A DNA stretch of 12,113 nt from Thoreauomyces humboldtii (lineage: Eukaryota; Chytridiomycota; Chytridiomycetes; Spizellomycetales; Powellomycetaceae), in assembly GCA_027596035.1 (NCBI GenBank), contig JADGJA010000705.1, forward strand, positions 1 to 12,113, in the 5' to 3' direction. Made by a program: the position numbers and the translations under genes. Below the pieces are notes generated by a model, which worked only from the letters and a program-made list of their open reading frames with translations, made no database searches and was not told the origin of the DNA. How positions within the stretch are numbered: position 1 is the first letter of the stretch; the number at the start of each line of letters is the position of its first letter. Positions 913 to 12,096 of the stretch are shown piece by piece.

Positions 913-3900
913 TCACTCAGCATCGGGGTCCGTGCTAGACAAAACCTTGATGTCCTTTTCAGAGTAACCGAAATTCCGAGACAGCTGATGAAGAACGGGT
1001 AAGCGGGAAGCGTCACGGACGGATACACAGACGGATACGACGATCCGGTATCTTACCTCTCCTTGAACGAGCTCGTTGAAGTCCGGTGGACCACAAACGA
1101 TGGCCTTCCGGATTTTTCCCGCTACATATTCAGAAGCGGCAGGCGATTGGGCATCACCGACTTCCGCCTGAACAGTCACGACGGCAGCACCGTCCACAGC
1201 TTCCTTGATGATGGACTCGCTGATTTGGCCCTCGTATCCGAACCCGCTGAAGTTCCCTCGTCCGTCCTCCACGCCAGATTTCACAACGTGGTGGACTTCG
1301 AACTGGTGCGGGTAGGCCAGCAATACCGCGTCCATCATCTCGGATCCGACCATCTCGCCGGGAGTGTTGATGCAATTCACGAGCACGAGCTTGAATCGGG
1401 TTCCGAAGCGGGGATATGTTTTTGGCAACGGAAACACGCCTTCCTCGTCCGTCTTGGCGTTGAAACCTAAGGCCCAGCCATCCAGGTAGTGGTGCCGCAC
1501 AACGAGGCTATCGCCCTTCGTAATCTTCAGTTCGTCGGGCATGAGAGGCTCGTAGTTGCTTGCTGCCCGCAAGGGAACACCCGTGGGAAGGAATAGGTGC
1601 TGAAGGAGCTGCAAAAACGGAGTGATTCCGGTGCCTCCGGCTACGAACACGATAGAGCCTCGAATAGCAGGTGCATGACCGCCGCCAGACGTAGGGATCA
1701 TCGTCAAAAGAGGCGAGACGAGAGATTCTCCAAAAGATCCCCGGATCTTGAATTGACGGTCACCGGGGCGCTCAGTACATAGGAAAGAAGAAACTCCTTC
1801 CGGGTGCTGCTTGACCCAAATGTCGAAAGCCGTAAGGTTGCCCGAGACTGGGGTGTAGTATCGGGAAGAGGGGACGCCATGCACCCTGACTTGGATCTCG
1901 ACACTCTGGCCCGGCTGGAACTCCTCCTGCTGGCCTTCCCGAGTCTCGTATGGGTAGAGAAGGCAGAAGCGAAGACGCCAGATCGGCACTGAAACACCAT
2001 CGGTTACTCTGGTCAAAAGCTCTCTTTGGGTCAGGCCATATCGACGATATTCATATCGATCGAACTGACGGTCGGTCAGATGACAAGCAGTATCGCCGTC
2101 GGAGATGGATTTTTCGGGAGACGTGATTTCCCCGACCAGGAGGGATGAAAGACGCATGATCGCGAGTTTACTGTGCACGTGGGTTCTTCGCGCCTTGTGA
2201 ATTCGATACCAGTCGGCCTGTGTCAAGACGAGCGAGGCTAAGTTGATGGTCCCTTCGGAAACCACAGATATCTGGGACGATGAAGGTACGGGCTCTGGTT
2301 CGTGGAACTGTGAAGCGCGTTGACGGCGACCATTCTGAGGTGGAAACAGTGGTGGCGGTGTGAAGTCTTCCGCATCATAGCCGGCTTCGTGAAAGTAATC
2401 GCTGCTAACATCCGTACCGGCGACGGCCAGGAGGATCAGCTGGCCACCAGGGTGGCTGAAGATCCACTTCGAAACGTCGTAAACGTAGCGTCCATCGGCT
2501 ACGACGAGCAGTTTGCCGTGGACGACGGCTTCGTCGAGGGATTTCCACGTGTAAGCTTTGAGATCTGGGTATCGCCGTCTATCCTGTCGCTTCGTGAGTT
2601 CCAGCACGCCCACCGACTTCCCAGTCAGAACAGCCTTCGCATCGCCGCTCTCATCCATGGAAGGCACTCCCGTTTTCTTGATGACGAAGAAATACCGACG
2701 CGTAAACTCCGTCAAGGAAAACAAGAGAACCCAGAATCCGACCATGAAGAAATACACGATCCAGAACTGAACTCCGCCGCCATCGTCCATTGGATACAGA
2801 ATATAGAGCCCAAGCGCAGCCTGCGCGATCGATGCCAGGAGCAGGAAATAGCCAATGATTCTATGAACCAGCTTCACCGTCCTGCGACGCCTCGTCGCGG
2901 GAAGCTCGGTGCGAAGCAGGGAGCGGTTGGTAAGGCCCATCAGCAGCTGCAGTGTCAGCAGTGATAGCATGGTGACTCCCAGAACTGAGTGCGCGTGGAC
3001 TCGAAAGCGATCGATCGAGACAACGATAGTTACTAGCGAAGCAATGGCTAGGCAAACGCCGGTGACTTGCAAGATCACATGGACCCAGATCCATCGGGGC
3101 GTGAAGCGCATGTATCGTGAGTAGTAGGCTCCGCCCGGGAACAGCACAAGCCATGCTGTAAACATCCCGCTTCCATGAGCCACTCGTCGGACGGGTTTGG
3201 GAATCGAGATGAAACGAACAGTGTTTTCGGCGTAGTTGATGGCCATCGCACCGTGCGTCTGATTGGCTTCCGTGGGCAACCCCGTCTGCGAGCCTTGTGA
3301 AGCGACCAGATAGGGTGAGCTTCCAGTTCTTTCAGCCACATGATTTTGAAATACTCACCTGGATTCGCGTGGTGGTATGAGAAATATCCATGCCAATGAT
3401 TCTTGATTGACGCTAGGTTGTACGCCCAGATCATGTTTTGCTCGGAGCCGTCCCGACCCGACGCCAGCGTCGCGTGCGTGTAGCAACAGGAAGGCTGTGG
3501 AATCACCGGCCGCCGTACTTCCACAAAGAACGTCCCGTTGACGTATCCACCATTGAGAGGCGTCATGACCCATGGCTCTGGATGCCACACGGCATACGGC
3601 GGTGCATACTGATTCCGCGGTGTGTGTTCGTGGATCTGAACCGTCAAGTTGGGGTATAGATGGGAGACTATGAAGTCTGCGCCAAGCATCGTGGCTCCAA
3701 AGCCGATCCCCATCCACGGCTGCAACAGCAAAAAAGACGTCAGTTTCGACCAAACGACGTGGCAGATGTGTCTCTCGGTGGCCATTACCATGCCCATTGT
3801 CACGTCCGAAAGCGCCCAGTACATCCTCAAGTTGTTCTCATCTTCCAGGTATGAGCCGAACTGGTATCTGCCGTTCCCTGGGTATGCAAGGGTGTGCAGG

Positions 3901-4079
3901 TCCCCGTACAGTGTGAGGTCCGGCGCTTCGGTTGCTCGAAATTGAGGTTGGCCAGCCCAACCATATCCTACAAAGTTCACAGGGGAAGAGAGCGAGACGA
4001 CGGATGGCACCAAGGCGACCAGGATGCCGAGCAAGAGGAGTCGTAGGCTGCGAGGCTCGCGGCGATAGCGTTCCGTCAT
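913..4079 (-). CDS. DOMON - cytochrome b561 - cytochrome b5 - FAD/NAD(P)H reductase fusion, probable trans-membrane electron transfer protein
   Basis: Exons (minus) 4079-3789, 3719-3359, 3293-1057 and 984-913 give about 986 aa. Residues 10-30 are a hydrophobic signal peptide. Residues 50-217 are a DOMON domain (PWMGIGFGATMLGAD at 98-112; NHWHGYFSYHH at 204-214; candidate haem ligands Met108 and His213/214). Residues 240-420 are cytochrome b561, with haem-ligand His near 257, 289, 319 and 361 in successive helices. Residues 465-530 are cytochrome b5 (HPGG at 498-501, second ligand likely His519). Residues 630-986 are a ferredoxin-reductase type module: FAD motif RYYTPVS at 695-701, nucleotide motif GGTGITP at 770-776, VCGPP near 950. 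The order implies NAD(P)H to FAD to b5 to b561 to the outer DOMON haem, fitting a ferric/cupric or quinone reductase; the acceptor is inferred, not shown. Introns are 69, 65 and 72 nt; the 3358 donor is GTGAGT and the 1056 donor GTAAGA. ATG 4079 is chosen because a signal peptide follows at once; another in-frame start exists at 4130. The donor of the first intron (3788, GTAATG) is the least certain point. Confidence 0.9.
3720..3788 (-). other. Intron 1 of the redox gene, inside the DOMON domain
   Basis: The acceptor side is strong: a CTGAC branch site, a T-rich tract, then TTGCAG ending at 3720. The proposed donor GTAATG at 3788 gives a 69-nt intron without in-frame stops. Removing it leaves only 10 residues between the two DOMON tryptophans, fewer than I would expect for the hairpin strand, so the true donor might lie further into this segment, or it may be retained in some transcripts. 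Confidence 0.6.
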
Positions 4080-4498: not shown

Positions 4499-5178
4499 AA
4501 GGGCAACTGGACCAGATCACCACGTCTCGAAGACAGGGAAGGCAGCAAGGAGAGTTGGACAACCGACGACGGCTCACCCCGGAGTATCCAGTACATGCCC
4601 ACAATGTCATTTTCATCTTTAGATTGGGGTTTGTGCACGTCACCTCGGCAGGCCAAGGGAGTCGGTGCTAGAGACGACGCATGTATGCAAGAGACTTCAC
4701 CGCCAGTGGTAAGAGTACCAAAGACCAGAGAAGCCAATGCAAGTGAACTTTATGGGTAATTTGGGGCAGCGATATCATGTACCATCGAGGGTTTGAGCTG
4801 TTCATGAAAGCGAGCGAGCAGCTCAGTTTCCAGGAGGGAGTTACTCGAGGTACCGGGTACGGTAGCAGCCGTGACCTGTCGAACGGAAGCGTTGCCATCG
4901 GGAGTCGGAAGATGGCTTAAACTGGGCCCAGAAATTCGTAAGGTACAGGGATGATGTGAGATGGCGGCTATGAGCCTACTGCATGTGCTGTATGAGCGAG
5001 ACTGGAACGGAAGAGAAAAGGCGAAACCTCGGGCTAAGTGGCTTTTCCAACACGTACAATCCGCTATCGAAAACAACGTGGCCTCAGCTACGAGCGGGTC
5101 TCATCGAACTCAGAGTCCTTACTACTTTGTATAAACTCAGCTGTCCTCGGAGGTGTCTCCTTGCGTCGACGAGCATCC

Positions 5179-8038
5179 ATGAGCTTTGCGCCACGCCCTC
5201 GATCAGCGGCCAGTCATCCTACCTTGTCATCGAACATTCAGGGACAGCCACCGTCGAGTACAACCCTTCCTGTCCGTCGTGAGCGCAAACCTGCCACAGC
5301 ATGGGCCTCCACTCCGTCTTTCGCTGCCACCACTCATCGCTCGACAACGCCCCGCAAAAAACCACAAGCTGGTCCTCAGGATGTTGTTGGCTTTGGCTCA
5401 CCCAAAGTCGTGTGGACCACTGCATATCAAACCGAGGAAGAGATGAAGGCGATACGGTTGGCTCAATCGCTGCCAGTGACTAGGTGCGTAGAACTGATGG
5501 TCGAGAGGCGAGCAAAAGACTGTGTTTCCCAATCTCACCTTGCTTTTTTTCGCAAGCAAGTTCATGCAGGAACTAAGGCCCCATGCCGCTTTGCTCAGAA
5601 AGGACATCCAACCGGTCTTTGAGCGGCTCGGTGCAAGCGTTGGTAGATTCTGCAGTTTCTCGGTGCTCGCCTTGTATCCTTCATAAACTGACCTTTGGAT
5701 AGCGCATTTCGGCAGACAAATGGACCAACGGGATGCTGATTACCTCCTCGTCCGATACTTCCATGACTATGAGGAGGCTCTTGCGTCATTTCTGCATGAT
5801 GTAGGTATCCACAAAACGTGCTAGTGCTTCCATGATCTTGACTACTTTCATGCTATCATCGCAGTACTTTGGGCCGAGCCACGCCGACGGTCACTCCCGA
5901 AACGCACAGTTGTTGGCAGCAGCACCTGCACCACCCTTACCACTCTGCCAGTCCATAACCTCCTGGGCGAAGACACAAATGCGATACTTTGACGTCCTGT
6001 CGGATCAAGACGCCATCGTACAACGATTCCTGAAAACGTTTGAAAACCTTGAGGAAGAAAACGTGATTCTGAAAGATGTGCTTGGACAACGGGGCAAACT
6101 GACAAGTGCACACACCACCAGCGCTACTACAGGCGCAAAAGGCGTAGATCAAGGGTTCCAGATGTCCGAAGTGACCATCCGACGAATCGTTCACGAACCC
6201 CTGGTCCGAAGACGGCAACCGGTGGATCGCGGAACGGATCCACCAGATCCGATCGTTGACTCAGCCACGACCCTCGCCTTGAACCATCTCGTCGCGACCA
6301 CCGAAGCCATCCCCTCGTCTTCGACCGAGTCCACTCCACGTGTCGACGCCCCGGCGCTTGCCTCCCTTCTTGCCGACATCCGAAGTTACAATCGTCGCGT
6401 CGCCAAGCGCGTCGAGACCGCCCACCGAGCTGTGCAGACAGACGCACCGAAAATAGTTGAGATCTCAAGGAAAGATGGAGGCACGCAGACCTGGGTCCCG
6501 GAGGAAGTGCGAGAGACGCAGGCGCGAGCATGTCAAACAGATGTTGGGGAGAAGGGTCAGGACGTGGCATCTCAGGTCGATATCCCCCACCCAGCTGAGA
6601 TCAAACTAGAGCGTTGCTCGAAAAAGGTTCAAAGCTTGGAAGCAAAGGTACGAGAAACTTTCGTACAAGCGACAGCTGGCAAGACGGAGCACCAGGTGTT
6701 GATCAAGTGTTTCGGTTAGCTGAAAGACACGATCCATGGGCACGAGGAAGTCCTACTCGATCTCAAGAAGGTTCACGAAGGCGAGATTTGTACCATTCGC
6801 CAGCACCATGAGACTGAGAAGAAACGTCTGTCCAAAGATCGCGAGGAAATGCTCGCATGGGTGGAACGGTCCGAAAGAGTAAAGACGGAAGCTATAAGCA
6901 TACAGCAAATTCTCGAGAGTCGATGTCAGAACTTCGACAATCAAGTCAAGGAAATGGAAGCTGACTGTAAGAACCCCCCGCTTGCTTCCTCTTCCTACGC
7001 AGGCGATGCTGATTACCCGTTGCACGGATATGTTGCGTGATGTAGATGACACGCTGCAAGAAACTCACGATAAGCTCACAAAGACCCACATAGCAACTCA
7101 ACTCTCACACTTGAAGGCCCGCAGTCTCCTGCAACTTCTTCAAACTGTCCAAGAGCGGCACTCGGCGGCGACAGATCAGGCCCACGCCGCACATCTCACG
7201 ACTCTGGAGTCCCATCTCAGCGCGCTTCGAGTCACTCTCGAGGAGACGCACAAGTCCCTCGTAAGCGTCCAAGAGCGCGCGCGCAGAGATCTGGAGACCG
7301 GAGACCAAGTCACGGAACGAGCGAAACAGGATCTGGCGGAGTCTCAGAAAGGAACGCAGAAGCTCGTCGATGGGACATTGGAGCTAGAAAGGCTCGTGAG
7401 GGTCGAAAGAGAGCGGAGAGGGGAGGTGGAACGTTGTCTTGGAGAAGTCATGAGGTTTCCGGATGTCAGCTTGGGGCATCCCGTCGGAATTGAAGGTATG
7501 ATAGAGTCAATATAACTATTCCTCTCGACCGACACCATGTTGAAGCACTTCCACCAGACCTCGATCCAAAGGATGGAGGAGGCGACCGCATCTTGAAGGA
7601 TATGATAACCGGCAACAGCGTTCGTATCTCACTTCTCGAGCAAAAGAACAACGAGCTAAGAATGTTACGAATAAAGCTCAGTACGCATAAAACGACACTT
7701 TTGACAACAGAAAACTGGAAAACTGGAAAACTGATATCTAAACTCTAGCAGCGACATCTAATCCCTCTCATATGGCCACTCCGATTCCCGCTTCTTCCCT
7801 CGTCGACCGACCTGCCGTTCAGAAGGCCACTGAAGCGCTCACGTTGCAATATCTCGAACAGCAAAGAAAACGACTGCAAAAACATCCGCCTAAAGGTTCC
7901 ATGCGCGAGCATCATCAACAGCCAAAGGTTCCATACACGGCCTGGGCGCAGCTTCGAGCGTCGGTGCCTGGACATGGGGCGGTCGTCAAGAGGAGCGTTA
8001 CGAAATATCCACCAGAAGACTTTCACTTGTCGTTTTGA
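5179..8038 (+). CDS. Coiled-coil protein with a cluster of LC8-type QT motifs, function unknown
   Basis: Exons 5179-5483, 5557-5642, 5703-5800, 5865-6647, 6720-6944, 7003-7495, 7546-7680 and 7749-8038 give about 804 aa. The start is the first ATG in the frame. Residues 1-65 are a basic, Ser/Thr/Pro-rich disordered tail. Residues 75-215 look folded and helical, rich in charged and aromatic residues (for example YFHDYEEALASFLHD around 148-163). Residues 260-350 are low-complexity linker. Residues 352-402 hold four QT-like motifs (AVQTD, GTQTW, ACQTD, ASQVD). Residues 409 to about 700 are long Glu/Lys/Leu-rich coiled coil, ending in a short basic tail. No membrane segment or catalytic motif. I do not recognise the family; cytoskeletal, spindle-pole, basal-body or transport scaffolds are the natural comparisons, by composition only. 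Most introns are 50-73 nt and several carry CTGAC branch sites. The intron-5 donor (GTCAAG at 6945) is forced by the frame change and non-consensus. The last acceptor is a tandem TAGCAG (7748 or 7751). Confidence 0.8.
6429..6584 (+). other. Cluster of four LC8-like QT motifs in the coiled-coil protein
   Basis: Within exon 4 the reading frame encodes RAVQTDA, GGTQTWV, RACQTDV and VASQVDI. Their central Gln residues fall at about 354, 371, 387 and 400, spaced 17, 16 and 13. TQT, VQT, CQT and SQV cores match the known variation of the short linear motif that binds the dynein light chain LC8 (DYNLL). The surroundings are charged and predicted-disordered by composition, directly before the coiled coil. 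Binding itself is inference. Confidence 0.6.
7681..7751 (+). other. Intron 7 of the coiled-coil gene, with triple 8-bp repeat and tandem acceptor
   Basis: The donor is GTACGC at 7681. AAAACTGG occurs at 7711-7718 and 7719-7726, followed by AAAACTGA at 7727-7734, which supplies the best branch-site match. The acceptor reads CTCTAGCAG, so splicing after 7748 or after 7751 both keep the frame and differ by one codon. Confidence 0.65.
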
Positions 8039-9849: not shown

Positions 9850-12096
9850 TCACCCATCATGTTTCTTTCCAACTCTGCTCTGCTTTTGCGACGCGGTTTT
9901 GCTGAGTCCCGCGAACTTGCGAGGATCGTTTCTCGACATCTTGTTCCTATTCCTCGTGCCCTTGCCGCCCTCCCAGAACCCGCCTTTATGTTTGACGCGG
10001 ACGAGGTCCTTGCCGCATGCACAAGTCGTGACGGTGGATTGAAAATTCGCCTCCCGCGAGCAGAACCCACAAACGACGCGGTTCGCCCATGTCATCTCAT
10101 GCCCACCGGCCACCTCATCCTGATGGCAAACGTCGCAAGGATAAAGTTTGCCACAGCAAGGAAATCGGAAGTAACGATAGGAATGTTTGTAATGACGGCA
10201 TATGCCTGAAAAAGACGAGGTCAGTCTGGGATGTATACTGCTATTGATCGACAATAGCCTACCATTCTTTGGAAGCGGCGTGCCAACTACTAACGTAAAG
10301 TCATCTCTTGGTTTTTTCCTCTTCTTCAAGGTGAGCCCGCTGTTGTGCAGACCAGTCGGCGCAAGGTTGACGAACCTTGCGTCTTCGAGTCGCAAAGTCA
10401 TTTTGGCGTGACACCCGGCGATGCAGGTCATAGTGATAGGGTACCCGCGGATGACGGACTTGAAAGCATGGGCAGACGACTGGACTTTGAAGCATTGATC
10501 ACACGTTGCAACGTAATTGCTCGGCAGCAGATCCTGTGCACTACACTGTTCCAAGTCGAGATATCCGATGGAAAGACTGGTCGAATGAAGGGGAGAGGAT
10601 CGGAACCTGATTCCAAGAGCCATTCCACACTGCAGGCAAGTGACCCATCTAGGAGCAGGTGAGTCGCTTGGGACGAGGTTTTTAACATCATTTGATTGCT
10701 TGCATTTCGTACATCGGACGACGATGTTGAGAGACATGCATTGGAGGAGTGCTATGTTTTCGAGACCTGCGTTGGGAAGGCGGATATGTATACCCTTATG
10801 TTGTTGAGAGAGTGAAGTGGACGTCTGATTCACGACTTCTCCAGGATCCGAGTCTTCCTCCTCATCGTTCCCTTCCGAGAAATCCTCTTCAGAACTGGTT
10901 GCGGAATCTGATTCAGGTCCCGAGGGTACGACTCCCATGCTCAGCTCCCTTTCCGGAACCGAGACTCCCCTCTGGTGGCGCTCGTTATTTATGAACGTTA
11001 TCTTTGCAGGGGGTTCAGCACTTTCGATCAGAAGAGCTTCCAGTTGGGAATCTAGCCAATTGATCATAGGCAGAATCAGAAGTTTGGAAGCCGTTGCTTT
11101 CTTTGTCCATGCCTTTTCAACGTTGCGTCGAAGAGAAGCGGGAATGCTTTCATTGAGTACACGAATAGTGCATGGGATCATGGGATAGCTAGTCGGCAGA
11201 GCGATTTCCAACTCCAACCCCTCCAATTCAAAAGGAAAGTCGGGATCTGTTGGCACAAGATTTGCCCGGACGACTGTTTGGACCGCATTCGTCAAGACCA
11301 GACTGTAACCCGAGGCGCTGAAACGGCGCTCTATGGTTGCCAGGTCTGCCTCGCAAAGTAATTTGGCACGATCGGCTGGATCAGTGGTGATCTCGAGACG
11401 CGCTTCTAGCCCTCGGGGTTGCGGCCGCGCCACGGGCAGGCGTACGGGACGCGACTGTGTACTTTTCTGCGGTGCTGGAGACGGATCAGGGGCTGGTAAA
11501 GGCAACGGAGTGGCAAGGCCGGCATCAACGTCTGGAGGATTTGGTCTTGACGCCTGCGTCCTAGCGGGGCGGCCTCGAGATTTTGCCTTGGGCGCCTTTG
11601 CCTCGCGTCCAACCGTTGACTGGGACACCGCAGTCTGCTCTTTTTCCTTGCCACGCCGTCGCTGCTGCGGTCGAGTTTTCCCGGCGGTCGAGTCGGGGAC
11701 ATTTGCCGCCTGTACATGTAACTCTGCGGTCTCGGGCACGAAAGGCTTGGCGTTCGTGACGTCCACAAGCTGACCTTCAAGGCCTTTGATGATCTTTGAC
11801 ATTTGCGGCTGTGGTGCTGGGCCAGTGTGAGCAAAAGGACAGTCCACCCCTGATCGACAACCTGTGGAAGCAGCGAAGAAACGGCAACTTGGCGGTCGTC
11901 GAGTCACCTTCCGTTTTCTTGCAGCAGTTGCGGGTTGATCCTTTGCATGCGGGATGGGAGCGTCGGTCATCCTCGAAACTGGGGGTCGTGGGTCGGCTCC
12001 TTCAGCATCAACCTTCTCCAGATGGTCGCTTTTGAACCAAGGGGAAGAGGGTGGACGAGTTCCTTCTTACGATGACTCATGGTGTCGGAGTCCATG
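9850..12096 (-). CDS. CCCH - RWD-like - CHY zinc-finger protein
   Basis: Main exons (minus) 11978-10263 and 10205-9850 join in frame across a 57-nt intron (GTAGGC, CTGAC branch, TTTTTCAG). A first exon 12096-12072 is inferred from an ATG and a GTAAGA donor at 12071 that splices in phase to 11978, adding 11 residues; without it translation starts at ATG 11970 (687 aa). Numbered from that Met: CCCH finger C29-x8-C38-x5-C44-x3-H48; basic Pro-rich linker 50-190; RWD-like domain about 200-315 with the YPxxxP-type SYPMIPCTI; acidic Ser/Glu stretch 350-380; Cys pairs 420/423, 445/448 and 490/493, 516/520; CHY finger from 572 (CRHYKHSYRYF, CC at 586/587, CDVCH at 593-597, CGFC, CAC); Lys/Arg-rich tail. 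CCCH fingers usually bind RNA, RWD domains mediate protein contacts, and CHY fingers occur in ubiquitin ligases and redox-zinc proteins. No RING is present, so ligase activity is not supported. The exact role is unknown; nucleic-acid or ribosome-related binding is inference. Confidence 0.88.
11979..12071 (-). other. Candidate 5' intron (or uORF) of the zinc-finger gene
   Basis: On the minus strand GTAAGA starts at 12071 and a CCCCCAG acceptor ends at 11979 (93 nt). Splicing links ATG 12096 in frame to the main exon. If not spliced, ATG 12096 opens a 42-codon upstream ORF whose TGA overlaps the main ATG at 11970. Confidence 0.55.

Follow-up and report, generated by a model that had tools for sequence, protein, structure and literature searches.

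Among the described systems most like the gene reported here are the CYBDOM proteins, which include CRR and HYP1 of plants and SDR2/FRRS1 of animals. The gene lies in a 12,113-nucleotide stretch of DNA (C667:1-12113, called the window below) in the 823-contig assembly of Thoreauomyces humboldtii (Chytridiomycota, Spizellomycetales). Its product shares with the CYBDOM proteins a signal peptide, a DOMON haem domain with Met/His ligands, a cytochrome b561 core with two histidine pairs, and five helices that would place the DOMON outside. To our knowledge, CYBDOM proteins have no cytochrome b5, FAD, NAD or SH3 part, all of which are found in the window protein. CRR and HYP1 also differ in that they use cytosolic ascorbate (PMC10784544, PMC10784552); the fused NAD(P)H module suggests a main donor other than ascorbate. 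An earlier annotation made from the DNA letters, the sequence-only reading, had stated that proteins of this type lack a flavin module, which holds for the proteins it named but not for DOMON proteins in general: fusions of DOMON with further redox domains are frequent, FAD/NAD-binding oxidoreductases included (PMC10784552).

Other systems share part of this plan. NOX and DUOX oxidases likewise carry electrons from NAD(P)H through FAD and two membrane haems in one polypeptide, and the N-terminal animal-peroxidase domain of DUOX is shared by sister genes of the window gene only. The NOX of Naegleria gruberi shares the SH3 domain within the nucleotide-binding domain, where it has already been described (PMC3591440). 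In contrast to NOX and DUOX, the core here is b561 and not a ferric-reductase domain, b5 and DOMON haems are added, and the flavin module is of the b5-reductase type; an EF hand is also absent from the Pfam list of the window protein. FRE and FRO reductases also export electrons from a nucleotide donor, and a DOMON occurs in the eFRE of Naegleria and oomycetes (PMC3591440), but the ferric-reductase core (PF01794) is not among the 11 Pfam families matched by the window protein at E<=10. NADH-cytochrome b5 reductases (Cbr1, CYB5R3) have the flavin module and a b5 partner. Fusions of b5 reductase exist, Ncb5or being one example; the window protein differs in being fused to b561 and DOMON and in its inserted SH3 domain. 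The cytochrome of cellobiose dehydrogenase (CDH) has the DOMON fold and the Met/His ligands. CDH is secreted and has a sugar-oxidising flavin domain, whereas the window protein has no Pfam match to that (GMC) domain.

By its sequence, the window gene is a member of a genuine and conserved family of chytrids, in which a CYBDOM chain is combined with a predicted NAD(P)H dehydrogenase of its own and with an inserted SH3 domain; the family is kin to peroxidase fusions paralleling DUOX. We estimate at roughly three in four the probability that the protein is a self-contained transmembrane NAD(P)H:acceptor oxidoreductase, with the chain NAD(P)H-FAD-b5-b561-DOMON, an SH3 docking site and an ancestry in gene fusion. 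Cytosolic NAD(P)H would reduce the FAD of the cytochrome-b5-reductase module, and the electron would then visit four haems in turn: that of the fused b5 (His498/His591), the inner one of b561 (His289/His361), the outer one of b561 after crossing the membrane (His257/His319), and finally that of the DOMON (Met108/His213). The acceptor outside the cytosol would be a metal, a small molecule, O2 or a partner protein, and the SH3 domain would be the docking site for a cytosolic partner. The five helices predicted after the DOMON would put the DOMON outside and the reductase inside; a DOMON-outside topology has been measured for CRR, which is mostly at the plasma membrane with its DOMON in the apoplast (PMC10784552).

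The sequence-only reading had proposed one polypeptide with DOMON, b561, b5 and FAD/NAD reductase modules, and this was borne out by the domain search, by the conservation of the ligands and by five membrane helices predicted C-terminal to the DOMON in a whole-chain model. The Pfam B561 match scores 36.7 bits, with all four haem histidines present. The motifs that it had assigned to FAD (RYYTPVS) and to the nucleotide (GGTGITP) were confirmed as those of a reductase module, in which the RxYTP and GxGxTP motifs and the FNR fold were all found. The position that we take to set the choice between NADH and NADPH in b5 reductases is not acidic in the window protein. The predicted DOMON structure matches the CDH and DBH folds, and the CDH-cyt profile was matched in 6 of 10 members; the DOMON assignment is thus supported by fold, and the b561 assignment rests on Pfam and the ligands. 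Structure searches with the whole model returned only the reductase half among the best 50 rows of each search and are silent on the other parts.

The haem ligands were counted in 50 relatives aligned to the window protein, gaps excluded. These are the 58 proteins returned minus P0001 (the entry for the window gene itself), P0040 (partial), P0042-P0046 (outside the SH3-type family) and P0058 (a fragment). The putative DOMON ligands are nearly invariant (Met108 in 47/48, His213 in 49/49), as is the outer b561 pair: His257 is kept in 49/49 and His319 in 49/50, the exception being a Cys in P0027. Within the inner pair, His361 is kept in all 50, and position 289 is His in 35 and Lys in 15. The four b561 histidines named in the sequence-only reading (257, 289, 319 and 361) thus stand as predicted ligands, with this one variant. 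In 48 of the 50 relatives an arginine stands at H1+20, where the arginine of Dcytb holds a propionate of its inner haem. The inner haem of Dcytb is bound by the second and fourth histidines, and the sidedness given here to the b561 pairs is taken from the same source (PMC10691727).

Both b5 ligands, His498 and His591, are kept in all 50 relatives. Canonical b5 has about 24 residues between the two haem histidines; here the distance is 74–136 residues, with a median of 99 (51 rows including the window protein). An insert splits the b5 domain, so that the second ligand is His591 and not His519, and the split fits the partial Pfam match, which spans only positions 3–50 of 74. Between His591 and the VGE motif, the spacing of canonical b5 is kept. 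His519, which had earlier been paired with His498, was dropped as a ligand, being His in only 28 of the 50 relatives. The outliers without SH3 (P0042, P0044 and P0045) cover 71–73 of the 74 Pfam b5 positions.

An SH3 domain, absent from the modules of the sequence-only reading, was found within the NAD-binding fold. Residues 790–846, which come after the GGTGITP helix, match SH3 profiles as well as SH3 domains of solved structure, such as those of vinexin and JIP2. Of the 46 rows with a complete NAD domain, the window protein included, 45 have an insert as long as an SH3 domain, and P0056 is the exception; presence was scored, without a profile, wherever 45 or more residues lay between the columns on either side, and five rows with an incomplete NAD domain were set aside. 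By Pfam, SH3_9 was matched in 32 and SH3_1 in 31 of 37 members scanned (incomplete ones included, E<=0.01). Residues of the domain are well kept among rows without a gap: Asp804 (44/47), Glu805 (45/47), Trp824 (44/44), Gly836 (44/44) and Pro839 (45/45). An SH3 domain in the nucleotide-binding domain is not a new idea; the membrane core under it is new.

The gene model has three introns (3788–3720, 3358–3294 and 1056–985), each beginning with GT and ending with AG. The public entry for the gene (P0001, hypothetical protein, Thoreauomyces humboldtii, 1010 aa) agrees with the spliced model save for the third intron, which is retained there: its 72 nucleotides give 24 extra residues, at a place where the aligned relatives have none. 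A single open exon, 3293–1057, holds the b561, b5 and FAD domains, the SH3 domain and most of the NAD domain. The sequence-only reading had named two transcripts split within 2000–3300 as evidence that would count against a single polypeptide; because of this exon, a split at 2000–3293 cannot part b561 from the reductase. A misjoin of two genes was considered and ruled out, as b561 through the NAD domain is one exon.

Several points weigh against the proposed chain. The window DOMON falls below the Pfam cut-off and FAD_binding_6 narrowly below its own; sequence searches of the PDB with the DOMON and b561 profiles gave no match up to E 1; and global confidence in the model of the whole chain is modest (pLDDT 78, pTM 0.54). 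Two aromatics of the usual SH3 proline-binding pocket are missing: the first aromatic of ALYDY and the tyrosine of SNY. With the pocket incomplete, a conventional PxxP partner is uncertain. The genome also contains ferric-reductase cores (ten PF01794 matches, nine above the cut-off, on seven contigs, some of them belonging to one locus), so the chain would not be the only route for electrons out of the cell.

The incomplete pocket would suit a reductase of internal membranes (endoplasmic reticulum or vacuole), in which SH3 is merely a structural insert and the acceptor is luminal ascorbate radical or a quinone; ascorbate is a common partner of b561 proteins (PMC10784544). We regard this as unlikely, given the NAD(P)H module and b5 fused on the expected cytosolic side and the mostly plasma-membrane location of CRR. 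A role as ferric or cupric reductase in metal uptake is possible, if doubtful. CRR and HYP1 are metalloreductases (PMC10784552, PMC10784544), and FTR1-type permeases are encoded in the genome (three of four matches above the cut-off), but the FRE-type cores could do the same job, Pfam shows no uptake gene among the six neighbouring frames scanned, and nothing links the gene to iron. The sequence-only reading had compared the protein with the cytochrome arm of CDH, which would have it pass electrons to secreted copper oxygenases or to some other enzyme of the wall. The DOMON fold and the CDH-cyt profile matches agree with this. However, exon-by-exon six-frame searches of the genome gave no match to AA9, in a search that had no positive control, and none to LPMO_10, for which 1 of 14 control genomes was positive. 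Copper oxygenases are therefore less likely as acceptors, and this role seems very improbable.

Features of the window gene (positions are those of the window)
Feature	Position	Strand	Remarks
Full coding sequence including stop codon	913..4079	-	4 exons, 986 aa
Signal peptide, residues 1-31	3987..4079	-	identified by eye; hydrophobic after basic residues; predicted helix 11-23
DOMON, predicted extracytosolic haem domain	3208..3971	-	introns 1 and 2 inside; ligands Met108 (3687-3689), His213 (3372-3374)
Cytochrome b561 membrane core, 5 helices	2686..3195	-	outer haem His257/His319, inner haem His289/His361, Arg277 = H1+20
Cytochrome b5 part 1	2389..2559	-	first ligand His498 in HPGG (2452-2454)
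b5-splitting insert, residues 520-588	2182..2388	-	seen from His498-His591 spacing
Cytochrome b5 part 2	2125..2181	-	second ligand His591 (2173-2175)
FAD-binding domain, b5-reductase type	1726..2052	-	RYYTPVS
NAD-binding domain part 1	1588..1662	-	GGTGITP and first helix
SH3 domain, residues 790-846	1408..1578	-	placed after first helix of NAD-binding fold
NAD-binding domain part 2	916..1398	-	VCGPP; intron 3 inside

Elsewhere in the window, the forward strand at 1–440 encodes a cytochrome bc1 hinge subunit (UCR_hinge 33.4 bits, unspliced frame), and a 738-aa open frame lies on the reverse strand at 9853–12066, in which a CHY zinc finger scores 30.8, narrowly below the cut-off of 31.3.

There are at least six loci of this kind in the genome: the window gene and those on contigs C112, C143, C820, C782 and C109. 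They were found in searches with DOMON, the whole protein and the peroxidase, whose counts are lower bounds, and the loci were then fetched and read. C112 is like the window gene, with DOMON, b561, b5, FAD and NAD domains, SH3 and no peroxidase match. C143 (L017) has a peroxidase, DOMON, b561, b5, FAD and NAD with SH3, while C820 (L018) and C782 (L019) have the same order without an SH3 match. C109 (L020, ca. 4500–6900, reverse strand) has the peroxidase and DOMON in one frame; the later parts were not found there, and the locus may be decaying. Some parts scored below the Pfam cut-offs (C143 DOMON 18.6 and B561 19.7, C820 Cyt-b5 21.8, C782 B561 15.9), and C820 had no B561 and no NAD match by Pfam; these parts rest on tblastn and the reading of frames.

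All four An_peroxidase loci found in the genome are followed by a DOMON on the same strand, and the two share an open frame in C143 (the start of the DOMON only, 18.6 bits), C820 and C109. For the peroxidase part of C143 there are matches to lactoperoxidase at E 6e-50 and to dual oxidase 1 at E 9.2e-33. Outside this genome, near-complete An_peroxidase domains (269–345 bits) occur in P0039 and P0041 (Nowakowskiella), P0045, and P0046 (Gigaspora margarita), and P0044 carries only the final part. Since the sister loci carry an animal-peroxidase domain, NOX/DUOX is a closer working analogy than CDH, and the system seems to resemble animal dual oxidases on a different membrane core. By analogy, metals as acceptors would fit the known CYBDOM proteins, and O2 would fit the peroxidase-fused kin.

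A stronger version of this analogy is that the protein is itself an oxidase of the NOX/DUOX kind on another core, in which the DOMON or outer b561 haem reduces O2 to superoxide or H2O2, SH3 brings in an activator from the cytosol and the peroxidase-like domain of the sister genes has the same role as in DUOX. The fusions above and the SH3 of the Naegleria NOX agree with it. We nevertheless think it rather unlikely: the window gene has no N-terminal peroxidase domain by Pfam, and no An_peroxidase match is listed on its contig; a Met/His DOMON haem would have both axial sites occupied, which would not favour O2 binding; and NOX/FRE-type cores are present in the genome too. All seven peroxidase-like genes have the proximal RY[GA]H. 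The position of the distal histidine, fixed by alignment for C143 only, is occupied by Gln in three, Ser in two and Thr in one (Q, Q, S, Q, S, T) of the six genes in which its motif was found; P0045 gave none. With the distal histidine replaced, normal peroxidase chemistry is doubtful. Taken as a whole, the sequence-only reading stands in its proposed self-contained chain; it missed the SH3 domain and misplaced the second b5 ligand, and its CDH analogy keeps the fold match but is weakened by the absence of AA9 and LPMO_10 matches.

The first homologue search returned 42 proteins including the window product and a profile search 20, partly overlapping; each search scored 7991–7995 candidates, so the spread outside chytrids is a lower bound. 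The genus is named for 45 of the 50 relatives, and we take all of these to be chytrid genera (six species, T. humboldtii included, were looked up). The laboratory chytrid Spizellomyces punctatus has a homologue, SPPG_00880. A search from the outlier P0042 added P0043 (without the reductase part), P0044, P0045 and P0046. The NAD match is uninterrupted in P0044 and P0045, with no SH3 match, and the P0046 record stops soon after GGTGITP, too early to judge SH3. P0048, P0051 and P0007 have extra parts (DCAF4 propeller, ThuA, second reductase copy), which may be gene-model fusions. The family is named in no listing of open-access papers searched, a scope outside which subscription journals and preprints fall.

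A tree was built from 59 rows, 51 of which, the aligned ones, had been stripped of their SH3 residues. The SH3-type rows cluster in one starred group (99), at the base of which lies C143. One change on the tree accounts for the presence of the peroxidase (P0042, whose record begins within the DOMON, was unscored), and one for that of SH3, with P0056, the five incomplete rows and P0046 excluded; P0056 would raise the latter count. The deepest branches are weakly supported (82–83), and there were flags for long branches. When the root is placed on P0042, P0044 and P0045, the tree implies that the window gene probably descends from a DUOX-like fusion with an N-terminal animal-type peroxidase-like domain that was later lost, a direction that depends on the root.

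The 15 relatives with Lys at position 289 (P0007, P0013, P0020, P0021, P0022, P0025-P0028, P0030, P0032, P0034 and P0036-P0038) form one group, a sister clade, and position 289, scored for just the 51 aligned rows, changes once on the tree. Their genera include Boothiomyces (for example P0022 and P0026), Polyrhizophydium, Globomyces and Entophlyctis. Only His or Lys is found at this position among the 50 relatives, and the window protein has His. Pairwise b561 identity among the Lys rows has a median of 34% (23–96%), and Lys289 is one of only 15 of the 169 scored b561 columns that are invariant within them. P0027 has both Lys289 and the Cys at the outer-haem position 319. These relatives are candidates for naturally occurring His-Lys ligation of a haem within a membrane protein. 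Cytochrome bc1 with engineered His-Lys haems is functional, with raised potentials, and the authors of that 2016 report stated that they knew of no natural Met/Lys axial ligand in haems of integral membrane proteins and expected some (PMC4807273); the Lys branch bears on the open question stated there.

Tentatively, and with less confidence than we place in the chain itself, these genes could represent a second, independently assembled DUOX-like lineage in early-diverging fungi and some other eukaryotes, in which accessory parts known from NOX, DUOX and FRE proteins (an outer peroxidase-like domain, an outer DOMON and an SH3 inside the nucleotide domain) are joined to a b561 core that receives its electrons from b5 and b5 reductase, one branch having a natural His-Lys membrane haem. 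If so, regulated export of electrons from NAD(P)H would have evolved on at least two unrelated membrane cores equipped with the same accessory modules, and the two lineages would offer a natural comparison for what each accessory module does.
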